Program-made: the position numbers and the translations under genes
The notes under the pieces: model-generated
What the model saw: the letters and a program-made list of their open reading frames with translations, nothing else
Database searches by the model: none
Told to the model about the DNA's origin: nothing
From: Roseimicrobium sp. ORNL1
GTDB taxonomy: Bacteria; Verrucomicrobiota; Verrucomicrobiia; Verrucomicrobiales; Verrucomicrobiaceae
Assembly: GCF_011044495.1 (NCBI RefSeq)
Contig: NZ_CP049143.1
Location: forward strand, 4,340,001-4,404,000
DNA length: 64,000 nt
Direction of reading: 5' to 3'
Part shown: positions 6,095 to 18,250 of the stretch, one piece after another
How positions within the stretch are numbered: position 1 is the stretch's first letter
Layout: each line of letters begins with the position of its first letter

Positions 6095-7060
6095 TCACTT
6101 CACTGCGGCCTTGGGAGCCTCTGCCTTGGCCGGCTTCGGGGCGGCAGGCTTGGGCTCCACATAGGGAGGATTCGTATGAGCTTCGGGGGCCGTTTCCTTC
6201 AGGTTCGGTGTGACGTCTGCCTGCGCCTCGCCAAGAGCCCACTGGATGCCGCCCACCAGAATGTCCTGGAAGATGGGATTGGTCCAGACGTCCTCGCGGT
6301 GGCCCATGGCGGTGTACCACACGCGGCCGTCGCCTTCCTTGCGGGCCCAAGTGATGGGGAAAGGAGGGCGCTTGTACTCATCACCCTTCATGCTGGGGGC
6401 GTCGATTACGCTGATCACGTGGATGTCCGGCGTGAAATCCTTCAGGGAGTACCACTCCTCGGGGAAGCTGTACTCGGGGCCGACCTTCTCAAAGCCGGGG
6501 AACTTCGGGTCCGTCACGCGCACGGTGGCAGGCTGCTGGGCGCCATGCTTGATGAACTCAGCACCAAGGAATCGCACATAGGGATCCGCCTTGTCGCCAT
6601 GGTTCTTGAACCGGTCAGGACCTTTCTTGGATTCGTTGTCCGTGTGGAAGGTATCGCTCGCGGAATGCGTGCCCAGGAACCCCTTGCCACTGCGCACATA
6701 GTCAAAGAGCGCCTGCTTGCCCTCGGCCGTCATCGGCGGCTGGCCGTCGGTGCCTGCCTCAAGGAGATTGCCGGTGGTATAGAAGAAGACCGCGTCGAAC
6801 TGCGAGAGGTAGTCTTTGCTGAACTTGGAGCCGTCCTTGGAGAAGGTGAACTCCCAGTTGTGCTTGTTACCGAGCTCCTGAAGCACCTTCTCCGCCCAGC
6901 TCGGGTTCTCCTTCTTCCAGGAGATGACCGAGTGCTCAAAGCCGCTCGACTTGGTAAAGAAGAGGATCTTTTTCTTCGGCGTAGCGGCGGGTGCAGGGAG
7001 GACGGCAGCCACAGTCACGGCGGCCAGCAGGGCAAGAGGGGCAGCGAGTTTGCGAAACAT
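6095..7060 (-). CDS. ThuA-like domain protein, secreted
   Basis: 321 residues with a clear Sec signal peptide at 1-25. The body is a single ThuA-like domain (class I glutamine amidotransferase fold) covering about residues 28-285: KILFFTKSSGFEHSVI at the first strand, FDAVFFYTTG, the GFLGTHSASDTFH segment, and a C-terminal WYTAMGHREDVW block typical of the family. The tail (about 290-321) is Ala/Pro/Lys-rich and probably unstructured. ThuA proteins are linked to trehalose and other sugar use, and in this phylum they usually accompany Gfo/Idh/MocA enzymes, as here (4464-5870, same strand, 224 bases downstream). The biochemical activity of the family is poorly defined. Confidence 0.9.
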   Translation of the reverse strand: MFRKLAAPLALLAAVTVAAVLPAPAATPKKKILFFTKSSGFEHSVISWKKENPSWAEKVLQELGNKHNWEFTFSKDGSKFSKDYLSQFDAVFFYTTGNLLEAGTDGQPPMTAEGKQALFDYVRSGKGFLGTHSASDTFHTDNESKKGPDRFKNHGDKADPYVRFLGAEFIKHGAQQPATVRVTDPKFPGFEKVGPEYSFPEEWYSLKDFTPDIHVISVIDAPSMKGDEYKRPPFPITWARKEGDGRVWYTAMGHREDVWTNPIFQDILVGGIQWALGEAQADVTPNLKETAPEAHTNPPYVEPKPAAPKPAKAEAPKAAVK

Positions 7061-7222
7061 GGGAGTGCGGTTCTACACGGTCGCGGGCGGCTTGGCGATG
7101 GAAAAGATCCGGGATTGCGGGCAAGGGCGGATGCCCCGGACTGCCGGGTCCGAACAGGCTTGGCACATGATTTTACAGGCCGTTTACCTGACTTTCCCCG
7201 GGCTTGGGGAAACCAATGGCGC

Positions 7223-8035
7223 ATGCACTTGCGCCCTCCTATGCATCCGCCCGCTCGTGGCAGGCGGGTTCTTGGTTTCATCGCAGCAATGCTCTCCGCC
7301 TCCTGCAGCCCGGGCGAGAAGCCAGACATGTCGCCAGAGCCCCCCGGTACACTCACCGCCTCCCCCACCCAGTCTGCTGCTCTTATTCATGAAAAGCGGG
7401 AAGGGTATCGTGAAGCACTCGACCAACTCGCGGGTGTACGCCGGACACTCCAGGACACCTATGCTTCGACCCAAAGCCAGCGGGAGCGGACTCACGCACT
7501 GGAAGAGGCCCGCGCCGCTCTGACACGAACCCTTCTCAACGATATCTTCCCGGCATGGTACGGCACCAAGTGGGACTTTAATGGCATCTCCGAAGTGCCC
7601 GGTGAGGGCGCCATCGCGTGCGGATATTTCGTCACCACCACCTTGCGGGACGCTGGATTCAAACTGCCCAGGATCAAGCTCGCCCAGCAACCCTCACAGA
7701 CCATCATCCGCAGCCTGTGCGATCCGGGCACGATTCGTGTGTACCACGAGAAGCCGCTGGACACCGTGGTGCAGTACCTGAGAGAGCAAGGCCCCGGACT
7801 CTACATCGTGGGCCTCGACTGCCACACCGGCTTTGTGGTGAACGAAGGAACGCAGATGCGTTTTATCCATTCATCCTACTTCCGCCCACCACTCGCGGTC
7901 ATCAGTGAATCTCTCGACAGCGACCATCCTCTGCGCCGGTCCAAGTACCGCATGATTGGAAAACTGCTCGGCAAAGAATCACTCCTCAAGTGGCTGCAGC
8001 AGCAGGACATCCCAATGATCAAACAAGGCTCCTGA
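7223..8035 (+). CDS. lipoprotein with cysteine-peptidase-like (NlpC/P60-like) domain
   Basis: 270 residues from the ATG at 7223, which has GGGGA 12 bases upstream. A Met at 7241 is an alternative. The first 28 residues end in a lipobox-like LSASC, so a lipid anchor at Cys28 is likely. A coiled-coil helix spans about 53-105. The domain from 110 on has WYGTKWDFNG, then Cys133 in IACGYFVTTTLRDAGF and His201 in GLDCHTGFVV. This Cys-at-a-helix-start then His-on-a-strand order is that of papain-like NlpC/P60 amidases. The catalytic assignment is inference from this order. The open frame extends upstream to 6017, but that part is the reverse complement of the ThuA gene and is not coding. Confidence 0.75.
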   Translation: MHLRPPMHPPARGRRVLGFIAAMLSASCSPGEKPDMSPEPPGTLTASPTQSAALIHEKREGYREALDQLAGVRRTLQDTYASTQSQRERTHALEEARAALTRTLLNDIFPAWYGTKWDFNGISEVPGEGAIACGYFVTTTLRDAGFKLPRIKLAQQPSQTIIRSLCDPGTIRVYHEKPLDTVVQYLREQGPGLYIVGLDCHTGFVVNEGTQMRFIHSSYFRPPLAVISESLDSDHPLRRSKYRMIGKLLGKESLLKWLQQQDIPMIKQGS

Positions 8036-8048
8036 CTCCGGCCACTTG

Positions 8049-8120
8049 TCACCTGCCGCGACGGCGTATCCCGAGCAGACCCACCATCGCTCCACCCATC
8101 GACAGCATCGCCCGGGAAAG
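8049..8120 (-). pseudogene. stranded PEP-CTERM tail of the 8121-11183 gene
   Basis: Reading on past the TAG at 8121-8123 in the same frame gives 23 sense codons (LSRAMLSMGGAMVGLLG, then a basic IRRRGR end) and a TGA at 8049-8051. This aligns without a gap to the membrane helix and Arg-rich end of the paralogue at 11504-14692 (SRAVLLMGGVMVGLL then RRRRR). In the paralogue the preceding residues are Val-Pro-Glu-Pro. Here the Pro-Glu-Pro codons read CGG TAG CTT. The tail therefore seems to be a sorting signal cut off by a stop codon at the Glu of the PEP motif. Confidence 0.8.
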
Positions 8121-11100
8121 CTACCGCACCGCCACCACCTGGATGGTACCGCCAGAGTAGAGGTCACTCAAATCCCAACGCAGGCCTGCTTTCAACTTCG
8201 GGAGATCCGTCTCTGGGTTGATGGTGAAGGTCCCGTTCGGAGCCCCAGTCACCCAATCAAAAATCTTCCAGCGATCCCCCGCGGAAAAGGTGGCTGAGTC
8301 CAGTGTGCCAATCGTGCTGATGCTGAGGTGCGCGCCATTGAGGCTGCTGTTCCCAGAAACCAGAAGGCGGTCCGCGCGGGTGCCGTCGGCAGTCTGATTG
8401 CTGCCTGTTCCCGGCGAGGCATCACTCACAATATCCAGCTTGAGATTGCTGGTGTTGTCCGTGAAAACGAGTGCGCCCTTGCCCACAGTGCTGAAGGTGA
8501 GGGCTGCAGCGTTCCCGGTGCCACTCCCGACGGAAAGCGTACCCCACGCCCCGATGGTCACACTGCCGCCTCCTGCGAGGTTAACGTCGCCTCCCCCACC
8601 AAGGGTGCCCCCTGAACCCACGTGATACGAGCTACCGGTAGAGTGAACACCATTCACCAAAAGGGTGCTGCCGTTCACGTTCGTGGCGCCGGTGTAGGTG
8701 TTTGTATTTGCGAATATCACCGCGCCAACTCCAGAGCCGGTGATGGTGACTCCTCGACGCTGCCCGTCATCGCCGATGACGCCTTCGAAGATCGTGTTGC
8801 TGGCACTGCTGTTGGTAAGCACTCGGTCACCTTCCAACAAGGTCACACTGCCCGTGAAGGAACTATTGCTGCCACCAGCGGCAAGGGTCGTGTCCGCCTT
8901 GAAGATGATGTTGTTTCCGAGCGTCCGCGTGCCAATGGCCTGGCTGGTGCGGATGGCGCCGCCTGCGAAGATGAGATTCCTCCTGCCGACCGGCCCCTTG
9001 GTGACAGCTCCTGGAGAGCCCGAGGAACTCGAACTGAATACGGTGGTGCCGCTCAGAATGGTGGTATCTCCCGTGTAAGTGCTTCCAGCGGAGCCTGCCA
9101 CATAGACGCCAGTTCCCGCCACGGTGAGTCCTCCACTGCCAGTGATGGTCGAGGTGATGGTGGAGTTCCCAGAACCGTTCGCATAAATGATGGCTTCGCG
9201 GTAATCAAAGTTGAGCGTGCCTCCAGAAATGGTGTTGGCCTGGGACGCAAAGAGAATGGCTCCGCTGGTCACGGTAAGCACCTGCGAGTTGTCGATGTTG
9301 ATGGTGGTGCCAGTCGGTGCGATAAAGACGAGCGAATTGATCGCCGTTTTCGTCTCCACACTCAGGTTCTGGGTGACGCGTATGTTGTTTCCCGACACCA
9401 TCGCGTTCTGCGTAAACTCATCGATTGGGTTCAGGGGCCGGAATCCTGTCTGCGCGTTGTAGGTCACAAACGTATTCGGCGTAGTCGCCACGGAGCCAGC
9501 GCCGCCAGAGATTTCGTTGGCAGAGCCGACGAAGTAAGAAACAATCCACGTATTCTTCGCGCCAGGATTGATGCCTCTATCCAGGGCCACTGTACCACCC
9601 ACGAGCCGGGGGGTGGTCATCGTGAATAATCTCGATGCGCTCGCCATGCTGGAGGAGTTCACGCCCAGATTCGCACCGGTCAGAAACACCACGCCTCCGC
9701 CAGCATTGCGGGTGATATTGGAAGCCACGAGCGTGGATATATTTGTACCACCGAAAACGACCCGGACGGTCTGAAAGCCCCGATCCAGCACAAGACTGCC
9801 GATGGCTTCCGTGGAATTCACCCCGCTGTCGGCGCTGCCAGTGAATGCGAAGTCTCCACCACGGAAGGTGAACGTCGAGCTGTCGTTGATGCGAGAGTTC
9901 TTGTTGGTGGCAGCAGCACTGTTGTTGATGGAGAACGTCCCACCATTGAGGAAGTAGTCCGTTGTTTCAATCGAACCCTGGAGACCACTGAGTTCCAATG
10001 TCCCTTCGTTCACCGTCGTGGTGCCCGTATAGGTATTGCCGCGGGTGAGTGTGGAGGTCCCACTCCCCTCTTTTACGAGGGACAGGTTTCCTTCAACGAC
10101 CGCCGTACCGTTCACCGTCGTCGTATTGGCCACCGTGAGCACTGCGGTGGTGGTAGAATAGTTCGTGACCACAGCGGGCACATTGTTGTTCACCACGCCG
10201 GTCACGCCCGCCACCCGCTGGTCATAGCCGTTCAAATCGAAGGTGGCAGTTCCCTGTCCTTGGGCATTGCCAAGGTTCACCACCGTAGTGGCAGGCAGCG
10301 CATTGTTCACCCCCGCCTTGAGCACCCCGCCAATGACGGTGGTAGCTCCGAGATAGGCGTTGTTGGAATTGCTCAGCACCACGGTGCCTTCATCATTGTG
10401 GGCGCGAATATTGAGACCATGCCCCGCACCGCCCGAGTCAATGACACCCGTGACTTCCAGCACCCCCTTCGGCTGGGTCGCACCCAGGCGGGAGCCCGAG
10501 CTTCCGATGGTAATGTTTCCCGTCCACACGGATGTACCGCTGCCACTGGCCTTGAGCGCGCCGAAGTTGTCACCCGAGCCGCCACCATTGATCGTGATGG
10601 GCACCCCGGTCACGGTCACACTGGCGAGCCCTATTGAGGCACCCGTGCTGACGCTTGCCCCGGAAGAGAGCGCAAGGGCTGCGCGATTGGTGATCTGCAG
10701 CGTGCCTGCCTCCACCGTGGTGGATCCTGAGTAGGTGTTCGCCCCGCCAAATATCAGATTGGCCACGCCGGCCTTCACAAGGTTCCCACCAGCAATGTTT
10801 TCGTTGATGGTGATGTTTCCTCCCTGGGTGGTGATCCTGCCCTCGCCCATGAGGGTGAGCGCGCCGTCGTTATTGCTGTCCTGAATCGTCCAGCCATTGC
10901 CGTCGAGCATGATGCTGTTGACCGTCACGGTACCGACGATTTCCACCACTTGCGGCGTCCCCCCGAAAGTCGCATTATTTCCGTTCGTCCATGTCGCACG
11001 CCTATCCCAGTTTGGCGCAATCGTGCTCCATTCATTGGAAAGTCCGCGATTCCATGTCTGACTGGTCTGGGCTTGAGCAACGACGGGCAACGCAAGCGCA

Positions 11101-11183
11101 ACAGTCAACGCACGGCAAATTCGCCATAAGCTCTTCTTCGATATGTCATGGACAGCAATGCTTCGGGGGAAAGCTGATATCAT
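8121..11183 (-). CDS. autotransporter-associated beta-strand repeat protein, sorting tail lost
   Basis: 1020 residues from the ATG at 11183, chosen because the upstream layout then matches the paralogue at 11504-14692; a GTG at 11231 also extends the frame. A signal peptide (LWRICRALTVALALPVVAQAQ) precedes a parallel beta-helix built of autotransporter-associated strand repeats: copies of the pattern (T/N)TYTGxTTV and SGxGGLTV(A)GTG recur throughout. The protein is expected to be exported and to form a long fibre at or outside the outer membrane. It is clearly homologous end to end with the neighbour. Unlike the neighbour it stops at a TAG where the PEP motif should be (see 8049-8120), so it is probably secreted rather than sorted by exosortase. 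Confidence 0.88.
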   Translation of the reverse strand: MISAFPRSIAVHDISKKSLWRICRALTVALALPVVAQAQTSQTWNRGLSNEWSTIAPNWDRRATWTNGNNATFGGTPQVVEIVGTVTVNSIMLDGNGWTIQDSNNDGALTLMGEGRITTQGGNITINENIAGGNLVKAGVANLIFGGANTYSGSTTVEAGTLQITNRAALALSSGASVSTGASIGLASVTVTGVPITINGGGSGDNFGALKASGSGTSVWTGNITIGSSGSRLGATQPKGVLEVTGVIDSGGAGHGLNIRAHNDEGTVVLSNSNNAYLGATTVIGGVLKAGVNNALPATTVVNLGNAQGQGTATFDLNGYDQRVAGVTGVVNNNVPAVVTNYSTTTAVLTVANTTTVNGTAVVEGNLSLVKEGSGTSTLTRGNTYTGTTTVNEGTLELSGLQGSIETTDYFLNGGTFSINNSAAATNKNSRINDSSTFTFRGGDFAFTGSADSGVNSTEAIGSLVLDRGFQTVRVVFGGTNISTLVASNITRNAGGGVVFLTGANLGVNSSSMASASRLFTMTTPRLVGGTVALDRGINPGAKNTWIVSYFVGSANEISGGAGSVATTPNTFVTYNAQTGFRPLNPIDEFTQNAMVSGNNIRVTQNLSVETKTAINSLVFIAPTGTTINIDNSQVLTVTSGAILFASQANTISGGTLNFDYREAIIYANGSGNSTITSTITGSGGLTVAGTGVYVAGSAGSTYTGDTTILSGTTVFSSSSSGSPGAVTKGPVGRRNLIFAGGAIRTSQAIGTRTLGNNIIFKADTTLAAGGSNSSFTGSVTLLEGDRVLTNSSASNTIFEGVIGDDGQRRGVTITGSGVGAVIFANTNTYTGATNVNGSTLLVNGVHSTGSSYHVGSGGTLGGGGDVNLAGGGSVTIGAWGTLSVGSGTGNAAALTFSTVGKGALVFTDNTSNLKLDIVSDASPGTGSNQTADGTRADRLLVSGNSSLNGAHLSISTIGTLDSATFSAGDRWKIFDWVTGAPNGTFTINPETDLPKLKAGLRWDLSDLYSGGTIQVVAVR

Positions 11184-11251
11184 GTGTAAGTCAATGGGAG
11201 TAGGGAGAGGTATGCACTGATTGCAGGACACTCAGAAAGGAGCACCGGCTG

Positions 11252-11382
11252 CCCACCATTCTCCTCTTTGATCTGTCCGTTTCCATAGTTTGAAAGGAGG
11301 AACTACGCGCAGGGTCAATGCCATCACTCCAGTGTGGCCGCATATTCACTGTGCCGCGCACCACTTTGAGTGAAACACTTAG
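11252..11382 (-). promoter_or_regulatory. conserved upstream block of repeat-protein gene (copy A)
   Basis: Blocks shared with the region before 14692 in the same order: CCCACCATT at 11252-11260, GTCAATGCCATCA at 11314-11326 and TGAAACACTTAG at 11371-11382. The last two are 57 bases apart (start to start) in both copies. They lie about 70-200 bases upstream of the ATG at 11183 and probably hold the promoter or operator. The rest of 11184-11503 shows no gene. Confidence 0.55.
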
Positions 11383-11503
11383 ACAAATGCTTTATGCAAT
11401 CATTATACACAACACGCATCCAAAAAGGTGGGGCAATATCCGGGCAAAAGCTCAATCCTCCAATGGCTGCTACAGCGAGGCTTCTGACGTCGTCGCCTAT
11501 TGT

Positions 11504-14500
11504 TTAGTTTCTGCGACGGCGCCTCTGAAGCAGGCCGACCATCACACCACCCATCAAGAGCACGGCTCGCGAAGGCTCCGGCACCACCGTCACCGCGATC
11601 GTGCCTCCTGTGTAAAGGTCGCTGTAATCCCACTTCAGGCCGACACCCAAGGTGGGGAGGTCTGTAGCCGGATTGATGGTAAATGCTCCCGTCGGGAACG
11701 CCGTAACCCAGTCGAAAATCTTCCAGCGATCCCCCGCGGAGAAGGTCGTGGCATCCACTGCCGAACCGAGAATGAGGTGTACACCATTGAGATTGGTATT
11801 TCCAGAAACCACGAGGCGATCCGCGCGGGTGGCATCTCCGGACATATCGCTGGCGTTGCCGGCTCCCGACGAGGAATCACTGATAAGGTCCAGCCTCAAG
11901 ATGCTGGAGCTGTCCGCGAACACGAGCGTGCCTCCCGCCGTGGTGGTGATGGCAAGATCTGCGGCATTCGCAGTGCCATCGCCGACGGAGAGTGTGCCCC
12001 CACTTCCAATGGTCACGTTTCCACCTGCTGCGACGCCGATAGTCCCTCCCCCAGTCAGGGTGGCTCCGGACGCGACGCTATACGAGCTGCCGGTGTTGTG
12101 GGTGCCATTCATCATCAGCGTGGCAAGACCGGTCACCTTGGTTTCGCCGGTGTAGGTGTTTGTGCCTGTAAATATGACGGCTCCGGTTCCGGTGGCGGCT
12201 GTGGTGACGGTGAGGCCACGTTTCTGACCGTCCTCTCCAATCGCGCCGGAGAAGGTCGTGGTGTTGAGGGCATTGTTGGTCAGCACCCGGTCGCCCTCCG
12301 TCAAGGTCACACCTCCTGAGAAGTTGATATGGCCAACTGCCGCACCACCGCTGGCAATGGTCGTGTCCGCCTTGAAGATGATGTTGTTTCCGATCGTGCG
12401 AGTACCCGCCGCTACGTTGGTGCGAATGGCGCCTCCTGCGAAGACAAGGTTTCCCCTGCCAAGAGGCCCACTGGTGACAGCGCCAGGAGATCCTGCGGAA
12501 TTTGCAGTGAATACAGTAGTGCCGCTCAGCAGCGTCGTGTCCCCTGTGTAGGTATTGGCACCGGAAAGCACCAGGAGGCCAGTTCCTGCCACAGTGAGTC
12601 CACCACTACCGGTGATCACCGAAGTGATCGTGGAGTTCGAGGAAGCGTTCACATGAAGGATGGCTTCCTGCGCGCCGAATGCGACTGTGCCCCCCTGAAT
12701 GGTGCTTGTGCTGCCAGTGAAGAGGATGGCTCCACTGGTCACGGAAAGTGTCTGGCCACTGCTGATGTTGAGGATGGTAGTACCGGCCGTTGCAGGATCC
12801 TCCATGATCAGCGAATTGATCACCGTGCTGGTGGTCATGTTCAATTGGTTGTTCGTCGTGATGCGTGTGTTGGTCCCGGTCACAAAGGAGTTCTGCGTAA
12901 ACTCATCGGTCAGGTTCAGTGGACGGAATCCAGTGTTCGCGTTGTAGGTCACGAATGTGTTCGCCGTGGTGGACTGGGTGCCGGTTTCTCCGGTATTCGC
13001 CCCGGTAGAGCCAAGAAGGTAAGCCACAATCTTCGTATTCTTCGCGGCAGCGTTGATGCCCGTGTCGAGAGCGTCAGTAGTGCCGATGAGCGTGGGTGCA
13101 TTCGTCACGAAGAACCTCGAGATGCTCGAGGTGCTGGTGGAGTTGGCGCCCAGGTTCGTGCCAGTCAGGAATACCACACCACCCCCGGCGCTGCGCGTGA
13201 TGCCGGACGCAGTGAACGTAGAGACATTGGTGCCTCCGAAAGAAACACGAGCGGTCTGATAGCCCCGGTTCAGGATGATGCCATTGATGTTCTCGCTGGA
13301 GTTCACGCCGGCATCGGCAGTGCCGGTGAATACAAAGCTCCCCCCCCTGAAGGTGAAGTTCGCGGTGTTACTGATGCGATCGCTATTATTGGCGCCGACA
13401 GCGCTGTTGTTGTTGATGGAGAGCGTGCCGCCATTAAGGATGAATTCCTGTCCTGAAGCCGTTCCCAAAAGACCGCTGATCTCCAGCGTGCCCGCGTTTA
13501 CGGTGGTGCTGCCCAAATAGGTGTTGCCGCGGGTAAGCGAGAAGGTCCCCGTCCCCTCCTTCACAAGCGAAAGGTTTCCGGTGATGAACACATTGGCTTC
13601 AACCGCAGCCGCATTTTCCACCGTGAGTACCGAGGCAGTACCTGAAGTATTCGTCACCCAGGTATCAACGTTGTTGTTCACCACCGCGGTGACGCCTGCC
13701 ACCCGCTGGTTAAAGCCATTTAGATCCAACTTGGGGTTCGAGATCTGCCCCTGGGAATTGCCCAACTCCACCAATGTGCCGGTTGGCAACGCATCATCCA
13801 CACCCACTTTGAGCACGCCCCCAATGATGGTGGTCTTTCCCAGATAGGTGTTGTTGGTGTTGCTCAGCAACACCGTACCCCCGTCATTATTTCCGCGGAT
13901 ACTGAGACCATGCGCCACCCCACCCGAATCGATCGCTCCGGAAATTTCCAGCACACTGGTCGCCGTGCTTGCGCCCACTCGAGTGCCCGCACTGCCGATG
14001 GTGACGTTCCCAGTCCACACCGACGTCCCGGCACCACTGGCCTTAAGCGCCCCCATGCTGTCTCCCGAACCGGCACCATTGATCGTGATGGAGACCCCAG
14101 ACACCGTCACGTTGTTGAGCGCCACCGAGCCACCGGGATCGGGAGCGACGGCGGCAAGGACGGTCACATTCGATGTTCCCCCCAAGGCAGCACCGTTGTT
14201 GATCTGCAAAGTGCCCATTTCCACCGTGGTGGTGCCGGTATAGGTATTTGCCGCACTGAGCACAAGCGTTCCAGCGCCACCCTTGATGAGGTTTCCGCCG
14301 GCGATGTTTTCGCTGATCGTGCTTGTCCCTGCGGACGTAGTAATCCTGCCCTGCCCAACGAGGGAGAGCGTACCGTCAGCGTTGCTATCGGCAATCGTCC
14401 AGCCAGTAGTGCCAAACAAAATGCTGTTGACCGTGACCGTACCCGCGATGTCCACGGTTTCAAAAGCTCCAGCGAACGAAGCATCGTTCCCGTTCGTCCA

Positions 14501-14692
14501 CGGCACGGCTGCATCCCAATTCGGAGCAATGGTGCTCCAGTCATTGGAGACGCCAGCATTCAACCACGTCTGGGTGGTCTGCGCTTCAGAAGTGACTGGC
14601 AGGAGAGACATGGCCATCACGCCACACACACTCCACCATAAAAGTTTTAAAGTTCTACGACGAGCAACGGCACACCGGGGGGTAAAAAACAT
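11504..14692 (-). CDS. autotransporter-associated beta-strand repeat protein with PEP-CTERM anchor
   Basis: 1062 residues. The signal peptide spans about 1-38 (LLWWSVCGVMAMSLLPVTSEAQ). The body is a beta-helix of autotransporter-associated repeats (GTLVLSAANTYTGTTTV and about ten related units), interrupted near 520-640 by a less regular segment shared with the paralogue (NTFVTYNANTGFRPLN). The C-terminus is a full PEP-CTERM signal: Val-Pro-Glu-Pro, a hydrophobic helix and an Arg-rich end, which exosortase systems of Gram-negative bacteria recognise. It lies 320 bases upstream of its paralogue (8121-11183), both read leftward. Each has its own conserved upstream block, so they are probably separate transcripts under common control. 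The role is probably in the cell surface or extracellular matrix. Confidence 0.92.
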   Translation of the reverse strand: MFFTPRCAVARRRTLKLLWWSVCGVMAMSLLPVTSEAQTTQTWLNAGVSNDWSTIAPNWDAAVPWTNGNDASFAGAFETVDIAGTVTVNSILFGTTGWTIADSNADGTLSLVGQGRITTSAGTSTISENIAGGNLIKGGAGTLVLSAANTYTGTTTVEMGTLQINNGAALGGTSNVTVLAAVAPDPGGSVALNNVTVSGVSITINGAGSGDSMGALKASGAGTSVWTGNVTIGSAGTRVGASTATSVLEISGAIDSGGVAHGLSIRGNNDGGTVLLSNTNNTYLGKTTIIGGVLKVGVDDALPTGTLVELGNSQGQISNPKLDLNGFNQRVAGVTAVVNNNVDTWVTNTSGTASVLTVENAAAVEANVFITGNLSLVKEGTGTFSLTRGNTYLGSTTVNAGTLEISGLLGTASGQEFILNGGTLSINNNSAVGANNSDRISNTANFTFRGGSFVFTGTADAGVNSSENINGIILNRGYQTARVSFGGTNVSTFTASGITRSAGGGVVFLTGTNLGANSTSTSSISRFFVTNAPTLIGTTDALDTGINAAAKNTKIVAYLLGSTGANTGETGTQSTTANTFVTYNANTGFRPLNLTDEFTQNSFVTGTNTRITTNNQLNMTTSTVINSLIMEDPATAGTTILNISSGQTLSVTSGAILFTGSTSTIQGGTVAFGAQEAILHVNASSNSTITSVITGSGGLTVAGTGLLVLSGANTYTGDTTLLSGTTVFTANSAGSPGAVTSGPLGRGNLVFAGGAIRTNVAAGTRTIGNNIIFKADTTIASGGAAVGHINFSGGVTLTEGDRVLTNNALNTTTFSGAIGEDGQKRGLTVTTAATGTGAVIFTGTNTYTGETKVTGLATLMMNGTHNTGSSYSVASGATLTGGGTIGVAAGGNVTIGSGGTLSVGDGTANAADLAITTTAGGTLVFADSSSILRLDLISDSSSGAGNASDMSGDATRADRLVVSGNTNLNGVHLILGSAVDATTFSAGDRWKIFDWVTAFPTGAFTINPATDLPTLGVGLKWDYSDLYTGGTIAVTVVPEPSRAVLLMGGVMVGLLQRRRRRN

Positions 14693-14752
14693 GAAAGAAC
14701 GGAGGGGGGTAGATTACGACTCGCTGCGCGTCCAAAAGGAAGTGCGAGGTTT

Positions 14753-14875
14753 CCCACCATTCCCTTTGAAATCGCGCCGCATGCTGAAGCCCCAACTGCT
14801 CGCAGAGTCAATGCCATCATATCCAAATGGCTATATTTTCACGAAGATACCATATACTTTAGGTGAAACACTTAG
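14753..14875 (-). promoter_or_regulatory. conserved upstream block of repeat-protein gene (copy B)
   Basis: Counterpart of the block at 11252-11382: CCCACCATT at 14753-14761, GTCAATGCCATCA at 14807-14819 and TGAAACACTTAG at 14864-14875, with the same 57-base spacing between the last two. It lies 60-185 bases before the ATG at 14692. From 14876 to about 15149 I see no gene and nothing else to name. Confidence 0.55.
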
Positions 14876-15149
14876 GTCACAGCTAAGACATTACGACTGC
14901 TATTGCCCGCAATTGACTTCACGTTGCAATCACGGCGAAATGATCCATGCGGCAGAGTGATTTTACTGGGGAGCGACACGGTTTTTGGCGGGTTGCAGAA
15001 AGACGATGCATGTCTTTGTGGCATCTCTTTCGATGCGTAAGAATGGCTTCGCATTGACTCTTCTCGCGCTTTCCCTCGCTATAGAGCTCGCACGGGTCGG
15101 CTCTTATTATTTCTCTACAAATATAATGCCGCATCTTCCTGCGAAAGGA

Positions 15150-15700
15150 ACCACGCGATTTCCGCTTCCACTGGCATGAGTGTCATTCACCAACCTCGAG
15201 TGGGTGTAATTGTTTGTATTAGAAAATATCATGACACCACTGCCGCTGCTCGCCGTCGCTGCTGAAACCGGAGAAGGTGGCGTTCAGCGCTATGGTCTGT
15301 CTGCACTCGGTCACCCGCCGCGAGAATGACACCACCGCTGAAGCTCGAAGCATTTCTCGTGCTGTCAGCTCTGAAGATCACCTTGTTTCCAACAATAATT
15401 GAAGGCTGCCGCGGTTTCGTTGTTGTTTGCATTACCCGGTACATACAGACCATTCTCCGCGAGGATAAGTTCCCCAACGCTGATGATGCAGTTGCGCAAC
15501 CATTCGCATAGGTGACGCCCTCGACAGAGCCGCAGCGCAACGCGCCCGCCCCAGAGGAGAACAGGATGACGCAGCTGTCACCGTGAGCGTTTGCCTGGCC
15601 GCCATGGACAAAGGCAAGCAGCCATCAAACAGCAGCGAATTGCCGCGTCCGAGCTCGGACGTGAGTCGTGTGTTGGCTCCTGTCGGGAGGATGTCCCTAT
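15150..15700 (-). pseudogene. decayed third autotransporter-repeat paralogue (fragment)
   Basis: Read leftward, pieces in shifting frames match one after another the same stretch of the two intact paralogues: LPTGANTRLTSELG (near 15690), RQTLTVTA (near 15590), VILFSSGAGAL, a YANG segment, LILAENGLYVPG, NKVIFRADST with FSGGVILAAGDRV (near 15320-15380), LNATFSGF, and VMIFSNTNNYT with RLVNDTHASGSG (near 15170-15225). At least four frame changes break it. The piece corresponds roughly to residues 620-880 of the intact proteins. Both the N-terminal signal region and the C-terminal sorting region are missing, and it begins directly beside the stop of the M16 gene. Confidence 0.75.
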
Positions 15701-15727
15701 CGGTTCCGGACGGCTGCTGTCTTCACT

Positions 15728-18250
15728 CTACGGCTTCACCCGCACCGTGAAAGCACGTTCCGGCTGGAAGAACCTCGCGGCCACTTCCTTCACCTGAGCC
15801 TCCGTCACGCTCTCCAGGATCTGCGGAAGCTTCGCGTGATGACCGAAGCCGAAGCCATTCAGCTCATCCCAGCCCAACGCATCAGCCATGGCGCCGTTGC
15901 CCTGCTGTTGGCGCAGCCAGGAGGATTTCCAGGTGGTTTTGGCTCGTTGGAACTCGGCACTCTCCAGACCGTTCGCGGCGAGATCGGCAATCTGCTTGAG
16001 CAGTTCCTCCTCCACGAGATCGAGTTTCTTCGGATCGCAGCCGACGTAGAAGTAGAAAGCGCCGGCGCCAAGTGCGTGGAAGGCCTGCGCCCCTACATAA
16101 TAGGCGAGCCCCATTTTCTCACGGATGTGATTGAAGAGGCGTGAGCCCATGTCGCTGCAAGCCTCATCAATGAGATTGAGCGCAGGCACACTCGGATCCT
16201 TGAGTCCTACCGTCGGGAAACCAAGCACCAGCACACCCTGCTCCTTGTCGAGGGTGAGTTCGCGGCGCACCGGGGTCGCTGTTGGAACGAGCGGCTCGAA
16301 TCCCGCCGTGGAACGCGTCCCTTCCGGCAGGCTGGCAAAGTGGCGCTCCACGAGGGCACGCATCTCATCCGCCTTCACATCGCCGAAGACAGAGATGATG
16401 CCATTCCCCGCCGTCACGGACTGCTGCCAAATGGAGCGGCAGTCCTCCACGGAAAGCTTTTCCACTGTTTCCAGCGTTCCCATCGCCGTGCGCTCGTAGG
16501 GCAGCGTGGCAAAGATGTCGCGGCGCGCACAGCGCAGCGCCACGGTGAGCGGGTCTTCCATTTCCTCGCGAATGGCGGCGAGCTGGCGCTTCTTGATCTT
16601 CTTCAGATGTGCCTCGGGGAAGGAAGGAGAAATCAGCAGATCGCCCAACAGCTCCATCGCAATCGCCTCATCGCCTTTCATCACTTCCGCGCCGGCAAAG
16701 AGACGATGGACATCGCCATTGGCCGTGACCGAGCCACCACGATCTTCCAGCAGCGAGCCAATCTGCTCATCGGTGCGCGTCGCCGTGCCCTTCAGCAGCA
16801 TCTGTGCCGCCACCTGGGTGGAGCCGGCGTTCGCCATGGACTCCACCGGCACGCCCGCAAGGAACTGCGCGCGCACGGAAACCAGGGGCAGGCGCGGATT
16901 CTCTCCCACGAGGAGGGTGAGTCCATTGCTGAGCACAAAGCGCTGGGCTTCCTCGCGCTTCACCCCGGAGCCGTTCTTCGAAACCTTCTTCAACGTGCCG
17001 GTGGGATGCAGGGACACGCGGGAGAGCGTGGCTTCGCTGAGGTAGCGGTTGGCGACACCGGTAACATCACCCACCGTGAGTTCGCTGATGCGCTGGAGGA
17101 AGGTCTGATCATAATCAAGATTCCCCACAGCGAGCCAGCTATGCCCCAGGCTGGAGGCCATGCCGCGTGTGGTGCTGCGCAGACGGAGCTGGCCGCTGAG
17201 CGTGGCGTTCACCGCCTTGTCCAGTTCGTCCTTCGTGCAGCCGTCTTCCTTGAACTTCTTCAGCACGCTCTCAATGGCTGCTTCCACCTTGGGCAGATCG
17301 TCACCATCACACTCCGCTTCCAGGGCGAAGACGCCGCGATCGAGCGCGGACCAGGCGCCGGATCCCACCCAGTGGGCCACGCCGAGGCGCTCGCGGAGTT
17401 CCACATTCAGTCGGGAACTGCGACCGCTGCCGAGCACGAAGCCGAGCACGTCCAGCGCGGGCTTGTCTGGATGCGTATCTCCGTGGATGTGCCAGCCCAT
17501 GCTGAGACGCACGATGTCCGTGTTGAACTCATGCTCGGCACGGCGCGGAGCCACCTGCGTGGGTTCCTCCGGCATCATCACCGGCTCGTACGGACGGCGC
17601 TCCCAGGAGCCAAAGTGCTGCTCCACCTGCTGGAGGACCTTTTCGGTGTCCACATCACCCACAATCACGAGGAAGCAGTTGTTCGGCACGTAGTGGCGGT
17701 GCACGAAGTTCAGGAGGTCGTCGCGACCCACCTGATTGAAAATCTGCAGGTGGCCGATGATGGGGTGCCGCAGCGGATGCTCGCGGAACGCCGTGGCCTG
17801 CAGAAGGTGCTGCACCACGGACTGCGGATCATCATTGTCCATGGCGAACTCGCGGCGGATGACCTCCTGCTCCTTGATCAGCTCGTCCGCATGGAAGGTG
17901 GAGCGCCGGGCCATGTCCGAGAGGATATCCAGGTAACCCTCCACGTGCTCGGCCACGCCGTCGATCCAATACACCGTGCGGTTGAAGGTGGTGTAGGCGT
18001 TTACATAACCGCCGCGTGCCTGGATTTCCTGGGCGATGTCCGGGGCCGTACGGCGTTCCGTACCCTTGAAGAACATGTGCTCCACCAAGTGGGCCAGGCC
18101 GGCGCCAGTCCATTTTTCCTCATGGAGGCTTCCTGCCTTCACCCAAAGCTGTACCGCTGCGAGGGGATGGGAGTGATCCTCAAGGATGATGACTTCAAGG
18201 CCATTGGCCAGGGTGCGGAGCTGGGCGGAATTGGGTGGCAGGGTGAACAT
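15728..18250 (-). CDS. M16 family zinc peptidase (insulinase/processing-peptidase type)
   Basis: 840 residues made of two tandem M16 halves. The first half has the inverted zinc motif HLVEH at 54-58, with Glu134 at the expected distance as third ligand, and is the catalytic half. The second half (about 430-840) has the same fold without the motif and presumably closes the chamber. No signal peptide is visible from this start, so a cytosolic location is likely. Bacterial M16 enzymes degrade short peptides or process leaders; the substrate here is unknown. The next gene upstream (18334-18741) is read the same way with an 83-base gap, so the two may form an operon. Confidence 0.93.
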   Translation of the reverse strand: MFTLPPNSAQLRTLANGLEVIILEDHSHPLAAVQLWVKAGSLHEEKWTGAGLAHLVEHMFFKGTERRTAPDIAQEIQARGGYVNAYTTFNRTVYWIDGVAEHVEGYLDILSDMARRSTFHADELIKEQEVIRREFAMDNDDPQSVVQHLLQATAFREHPLRHPIIGHLQIFNQVGRDDLLNFVHRHYVPNNCFLVIVGDVDTEKVLQQVEQHFGSWERRPYEPVMMPEEPTQVAPRRAEHEFNTDIVRLSMGWHIHGDTHPDKPALDVLGFVLGSGRSSRLNVELRERLGVAHWVGSGAWSALDRGVFALEAECDGDDLPKVEAAIESVLKKFKEDGCTKDELDKAVNATLSGQLRLRSTTRGMASSLGHSWLAVGNLDYDQTFLQRISELTVGDVTGVANRYLSEATLSRVSLHPTGTLKKVSKNGSGVKREEAQRFVLSNGLTLLVGENPRLPLVSVRAQFLAGVPVESMANAGSTQVAAQMLLKGTATRTDEQIGSLLEDRGGSVTANGDVHRLFAGAEVMKGDEAIAMELLGDLLISPSFPEAHLKKIKKRQLAAIREEMEDPLTVALRCARRDIFATLPYERTAMGTLETVEKLSVEDCRSIWQQSVTAGNGIISVFGDVKADEMRALVERHFASLPEGTRSTAGFEPLVPTATPVRRELTLDKEQGVLVLGFPTVGLKDPSVPALNLIDEACSDMGSRLFNHIREKMGLAYYVGAQAFHALGAGAFYFYVGCDPKKLDLVEEELLKQIADLAANGLESAEFQRAKTTWKSSWLRQQQGNGAMADALGWDELNGFGFGHHAKLPQILESVTEAQVKEVAARFFQPERAFTVRVKP

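Follow-up and report, generated by a model that had tools for sequence, protein, structure and literature searches.

Probable loss of a PEP-CTERM sorting signal by point mutation from one of two tandem repeat-protein genes in Roseimicrobium sp. ORNL1

Homologous pairs in which one protein carries a PEP-CTERM sorting signal and the other does not were already noted by Haft et al. (2006; PMC1569441), and in internalin A of Listeria natural premature stops remove the C-terminal sorting signal, the protein then being exported unanchored (PMC6558679). In the MYXO-CTERM system, proteins whose signal cysteines had been altered were processed, appeared in the medium and were impaired in surface location (PMC11980579). 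Two PEP-CTERM proteins of one cyanobacterium are reported to be abundant in the periplasm (PMC12188702), and PepA, a further PEP-CTERM protein, has been tied to exopolysaccharide binding in flocs (PMC9850573). The stop site considered here was not found described in that part of the open-licence PEP-CTERM/exosortase literature which was covered.

The genes in question, A and its tandem paralogue B, lie in a window (the whole stretch of DNA that was analysed) of 64,000 nucleotides from Roseimicrobium sp. ORNL1 (Table 1). The product of gene A begins with what appears, by eye only, to be a Sec-type signal sequence (approximately the first 39 residues) and contains repeats that score above the curated cut-offs of both the PATR model PF12951 (60.4 bits, cut-off 27) and TIGR02601 (60 bits, cut-off 19.85); the C-terminal beta-barrel of the classical type V autotransporters (PF03797) is absent from both A and B. 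At its 3′ end gene A reads ...VVAVR and terminates with TAG at 8121-8123, the minus-strand letters around the stop being GTG CGG TAG CTT TCC. Pro-Glu-Pro is not present in the translated C-terminus, and the transmembrane helix and basic cluster are encoded only 3′ of the stop, where the same frame continues as LSRAMLSMGGAMVGLLGIRRRGR and closes with TGA at 8049-8051. No promoter- or terminator-like site was found at 7900-8300, and no Rfam family at 7000-16500.

Table 1. Positions in the window of genes A and B, their C-terminal tails and the third copy
Feature	Positions	Strand	Basis or remark
Gene A	8121..11183	minus	open frame, 1020 residues, ends TAG
Former Pro-Glu-Pro motif of A, now CGG TAG CTT (Arg-stop-Leu)	8118..8126	minus	codon alignment with B
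PEP-CTERM helix and Arg tail remnant of A, 23 codons	8052..8120	minus	15/23 identical to B tail
Gene B, tandem paralogue with intact PEP-CTERM	11504..14692	minus	62% identity to A, ends TAA
Intact PEP-CTERM tail of B, 25 codons	11507..11581	minus	sequence and TIGR02595 match
Third A/B-family copy, remnant broken across frames	15128..15393	minus	two tblastn pieces, different frames

Gene B ends in ...VTVVPEPSRAVLLMGGVMVGLLQRRRRRN, and its tail scores 17.8 bits against TIGR02595 (PEP_CTERM; cut-off 16) and 18.1 bits against PF07589, which is under the cut-off of 20.7; no PEP-CTERM model matched A or the remnant by itself, and B was matched by TIGR02595. The bodies of A and B share 62% identity over 1015 aligned residues (NG86 dN 0.278, dS 0.97). 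The stretches upstream of the two genes have only 7-8-base matches in common among the matches listed. The third copy was found by tblastn with E about 1e-9 to 3e-10, and the gene adjoining it is one that we take to be an M16-type peptidase.

The tail beyond the stop of A aligns without gaps to that of B, and the interval from the shared GGTI segment to Ser-Arg-Ala measures eight codons in each copy, as the preliminary description of this locus had stated. Its placing of the TAG at the glutamate of a PEP-CTERM motif with 23 codons beyond is likewise borne out by the sequence. The emphasis which it laid on the stop is only half of the matter, since B reads CCG GAG CCT at the motif where A reads CGG TAG CTT: the stop does stand at the glutamate, but all three codons have changed, and with both prolines replaced (by Arg and Leu) the motif is missing whatever the base at the stop. 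This bears directly on the suggestion that the stop is a sequencing or assembly error, which the preliminary description had wished to see excluded and which is highly improbable. The genome is in one contig and 99.79% complete, and an error of one base would still leave no PEP, the two altered prolines being unexplained.

The likeness between the remnant and the tail of B exceeds chance. Over the 15-residue hydrophobic core A matches B at 12 of the 15 positions, whereas for 1278 of the 1485 pairs among intact tails the number of shared positions is 3-8, and the A core shares no more than 8/15 with any intact tail other than that of B. The yardstick here is a set of 55 tails made up of B together with tails from this genome, from relatives and from a few more distant records; two PEPA-type tails from this genome, which are unusual, were left out, as were two spurious frames. 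Measured between A and B, remnant dN (0.266) is close to body dN (0.278), and the 15/23 identity of the remnant is likewise similar to the 62% of the body. Some signs of drift are visible: A has Ser at a site which is Leu in 42 of the 55 tails, and the remnant core has a hydropathy of 1.76, where the median is 2.49 and only one of the 55 tails is lower. The profile score of the remnant is ordinary, 15 of the 55 intact tails scoring below it. The untranslated tail of A would seem to be drifting at present.

Homologues were sought in order to read the ancestral state, and among 67 further genomes from the family 14 gave matches to A at E <= 1e-30. One of the 14 is the sole other genome of the same genus that was compared (the sister species, G001), in which the match is to a different, longer frame (43%). 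The remaining 13 all come from one other genus, and in 12 of them an in-frame PEP-CTERM was read at the C-terminus; the evidence from two of these is weaker, as the match in G019 spans only residues 811-1017 and in G037 a second match (34%), located on a different contig, supplied the frame read, the best match there running off the stretch. In the thirteenth genome (G035; L051) the main frame ends early and a PEP-CTERM tail like that of G022 lies in another frame, a break which we read as a frameshift or a draft-assembly error.

Within the genome itself, 36 PATR open frames were grouped by hand from at least 151 PATR repeats (the best 150 of 451 candidates being scored), and 31 of these frames, B among them, end in PEP-CTERM; the others are three with an autotransporter barrel, one with neither end type, and A. 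The frame with neither (L094) encodes 2269 residues, the last 767 of which give no Pfam hit at E 0.01 and contain neither PEP-CTERM nor barrel. Three exosortase-family genes are present, all above the cut-offs of PF09721 and TIGR04178 and one above that of TIGR02602. A search of the genome with a profile made from 34 intact tails returned at least 45 matches, of which 43 had E < 1e-4 (the best 150 of 165 candidates being scored). No stop was found inside the tail among the 45 matches listed, but the remnant of A was itself missed by this profile, which consequently gives no base rate for such remnants. With PF07589 at E up to 10 there were 37 matches in the genome, none with an internal stop and 14 above the cut-off; at this threshold 13 of 14 control genomes also match, none of them above the cut-off. 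A scan of genome contigs gave 10 loci, all distant.

Because the homologues in the other genus and most PATR frames of this genome end in PEP-CTERM, A most likely had an ancestor with a tail and lost it. The loss of the anchor asserted in the preliminary description agrees with both the aligned remnant and these homologues, and the same two observations contradict the alternative of a paralogue without a tail from the start.

The timing of the loss was considered with the divergence of the A and B bodies as the yardstick. Had the tail been unconstrained over the whole branch of A, approximately 15 of 23 residues would be expected to differ, and 8 do so (P=0.002); for a tail unconstrained over half of the branch P is 0.05, and over a quarter 0.18. 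Since the whole-branch case is rejected, the loss is younger than the A/B duplication, and it is in this sense that the earlier term 'recent' holds. A rough yardstick is also provided by intact pairs at body identity 0.58-0.64, whose 18-residue tail pieces are 0.33-0.72 identical; A and B, at 0.72, stand at the highest value, showing no excess divergence for A. This remnant identity and the ordinary profile score would also fit a tail that is still in use or was lost very lately.

A tail still in use might be reached by programmed or leaky read-through of the TAG, giving a small full-length fraction, as was proposed when the stop was first described. The 23 codons past the stop are open and still encode a helix-like stretch together with an Arg cluster, and the base which follows the stop is C, a leaky context. 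However, the product of read-through would have Arg-X-Leu in place of Pro-Glu-Pro at the processing site, and hence would not restore the sorting signal. Nor was a CUA anticodon found among 61 distinct tRNAs from ARAGORN and a further 7 found by Rfam only, which were read by eye; an odd CUA tRNA could have been missed, because in one of the searches the best 150 of 202 candidates were scored. The 85 bases 3′ of the stop fold at an unremarkable z = -1.24, with 24 of 200 shuffles equally stable. TAG is moreover an everyday stop in this genome, terminating 12 of 39 frames assigned a PEP-CTERM end by script and, among 25 long frames of the window with third-position GC >0.6, 11 (A included). Read-through, and with it the earlier idea of a low-level route to sorting, is scarcely credible as an explanation. 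The tRNA genes of this genome include a dense array of approximately 20, several of them found by Rfam only and none with a CUA anticodon (L144:1056-4988; G000:C1:6363055-6366987); dense tRNA arrays are known from mobile elements.

In the sister species the genes that flank A and B are only approximately 640 bases apart and no trace of A or B lies between them, the whole block of A, B and the third-copy remnant (about 8036-15727) being missing; this difference may be either a gain here or a loss there. In a more distant relative (G067) the peptidase-like flank was found, and A and B were absent from the 17.5 kb read.

This absence from between the same flanks would suit the view that A has lately become a pseudogene, with no part of it under selection any longer and the tail loss as its first visible lesion, and with the third copy further along the same path; the cluster is evidently unstable, given that its third copy is a broken remnant. 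However, the frame of A is intact, with no additional stop in 1020 codons. Supposing that the loss preceded the changes at three further conserved sites, namely both prolines and a Leu, an unconstrained body would have remained without nonsense with p 0.011-0.014, as counted over 30 nt chosen by hand as conserved. This probability depends upon the sites which are counted: it becomes 0.095-0.11 over 78 nt and 0.11-0.33 if only one of the three sites came later, and ranges over 0.03-0.33 under looser site choices overall. The argument from nonsense thus weakly favours a body of A that has been kept, and lends equally modest weight to the suggestion, made when the locus was first described, that the loss of the anchor is 'kept on purpose'. 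Taking both sides together, we regard the pseudogene as unlikely.

The explanation which we favour, and which is probably correct, is that A arose by tandem duplication of a gene for a PEP-CTERM surface-repeat protein, has lost its sorting signal through point mutation and now encodes an untagged exported protein. Under this explanation, a paralogue which the sister species does not have would have had its sorting signal abolished by point mutations. The product of A would still be exported by the Sec pathway but would stop short of the helix and Arg cluster, and so would be neither held in the inner membrane nor handled by exosortase. It is predicted to be soluble, either remaining in the periplasm or being released, and could get as far as the medium; since it has no autotransporter barrel, retention in the periplasm is possible. 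Free secretion, as suggested in the preliminary description, is one of these two candidate outcomes. By the established PEP-CTERM model, B would be held by its helix, processed by exosortase and displayed on the surface. The stop in A could also be a rare variant, one strain having been seen. A further step, that the duplication and a selected loss of the tag have produced a kept pair in which the repeat protein exists both bound to the surface and in solution, is doubtful; were it true, a single adhesin or matrix protein would be divided between two compartments in this species. Whichever holds, A and B form a natural pair, with and without the tag, in tandem and in one strain, in which the role of the PEP-CTERM tag can be tested, and with which sorting could readily be examined in this group.

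As an evolutionary event the loss of a tag is ordinary, such losses being already known. With respect to the PEP-CTERM/exosortase system (TIGR02595, PF07589), B and the majority of the PATR frames of this genome carry the tag, whereas A ends before it, with a remnant that is still readable beyond its end. Internalin A resembles A in that a premature stop costs the protein its sorting signal, but it differs in being a wall-anchored protein of a Gram-positive bacterium that is reported to be secreted when truncated, one example being a far shorter product of 325 residues (PMC6558679). MYXO-CTERM and myxosortase share with PEP-CTERM a C-terminal tag of the same three-part plan; they differ from the case of A in the cysteine signature, in the protease, and in that the variants were made in the laboratory and did not arise from a natural stop (PMC11980579). 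On the final place of an untagged A, the cyanobacterial and MYXO-CTERM reports point different ways. A is a further example of a lost sorting signal, here in a Gram-negative system and with the fossil tail still readable.
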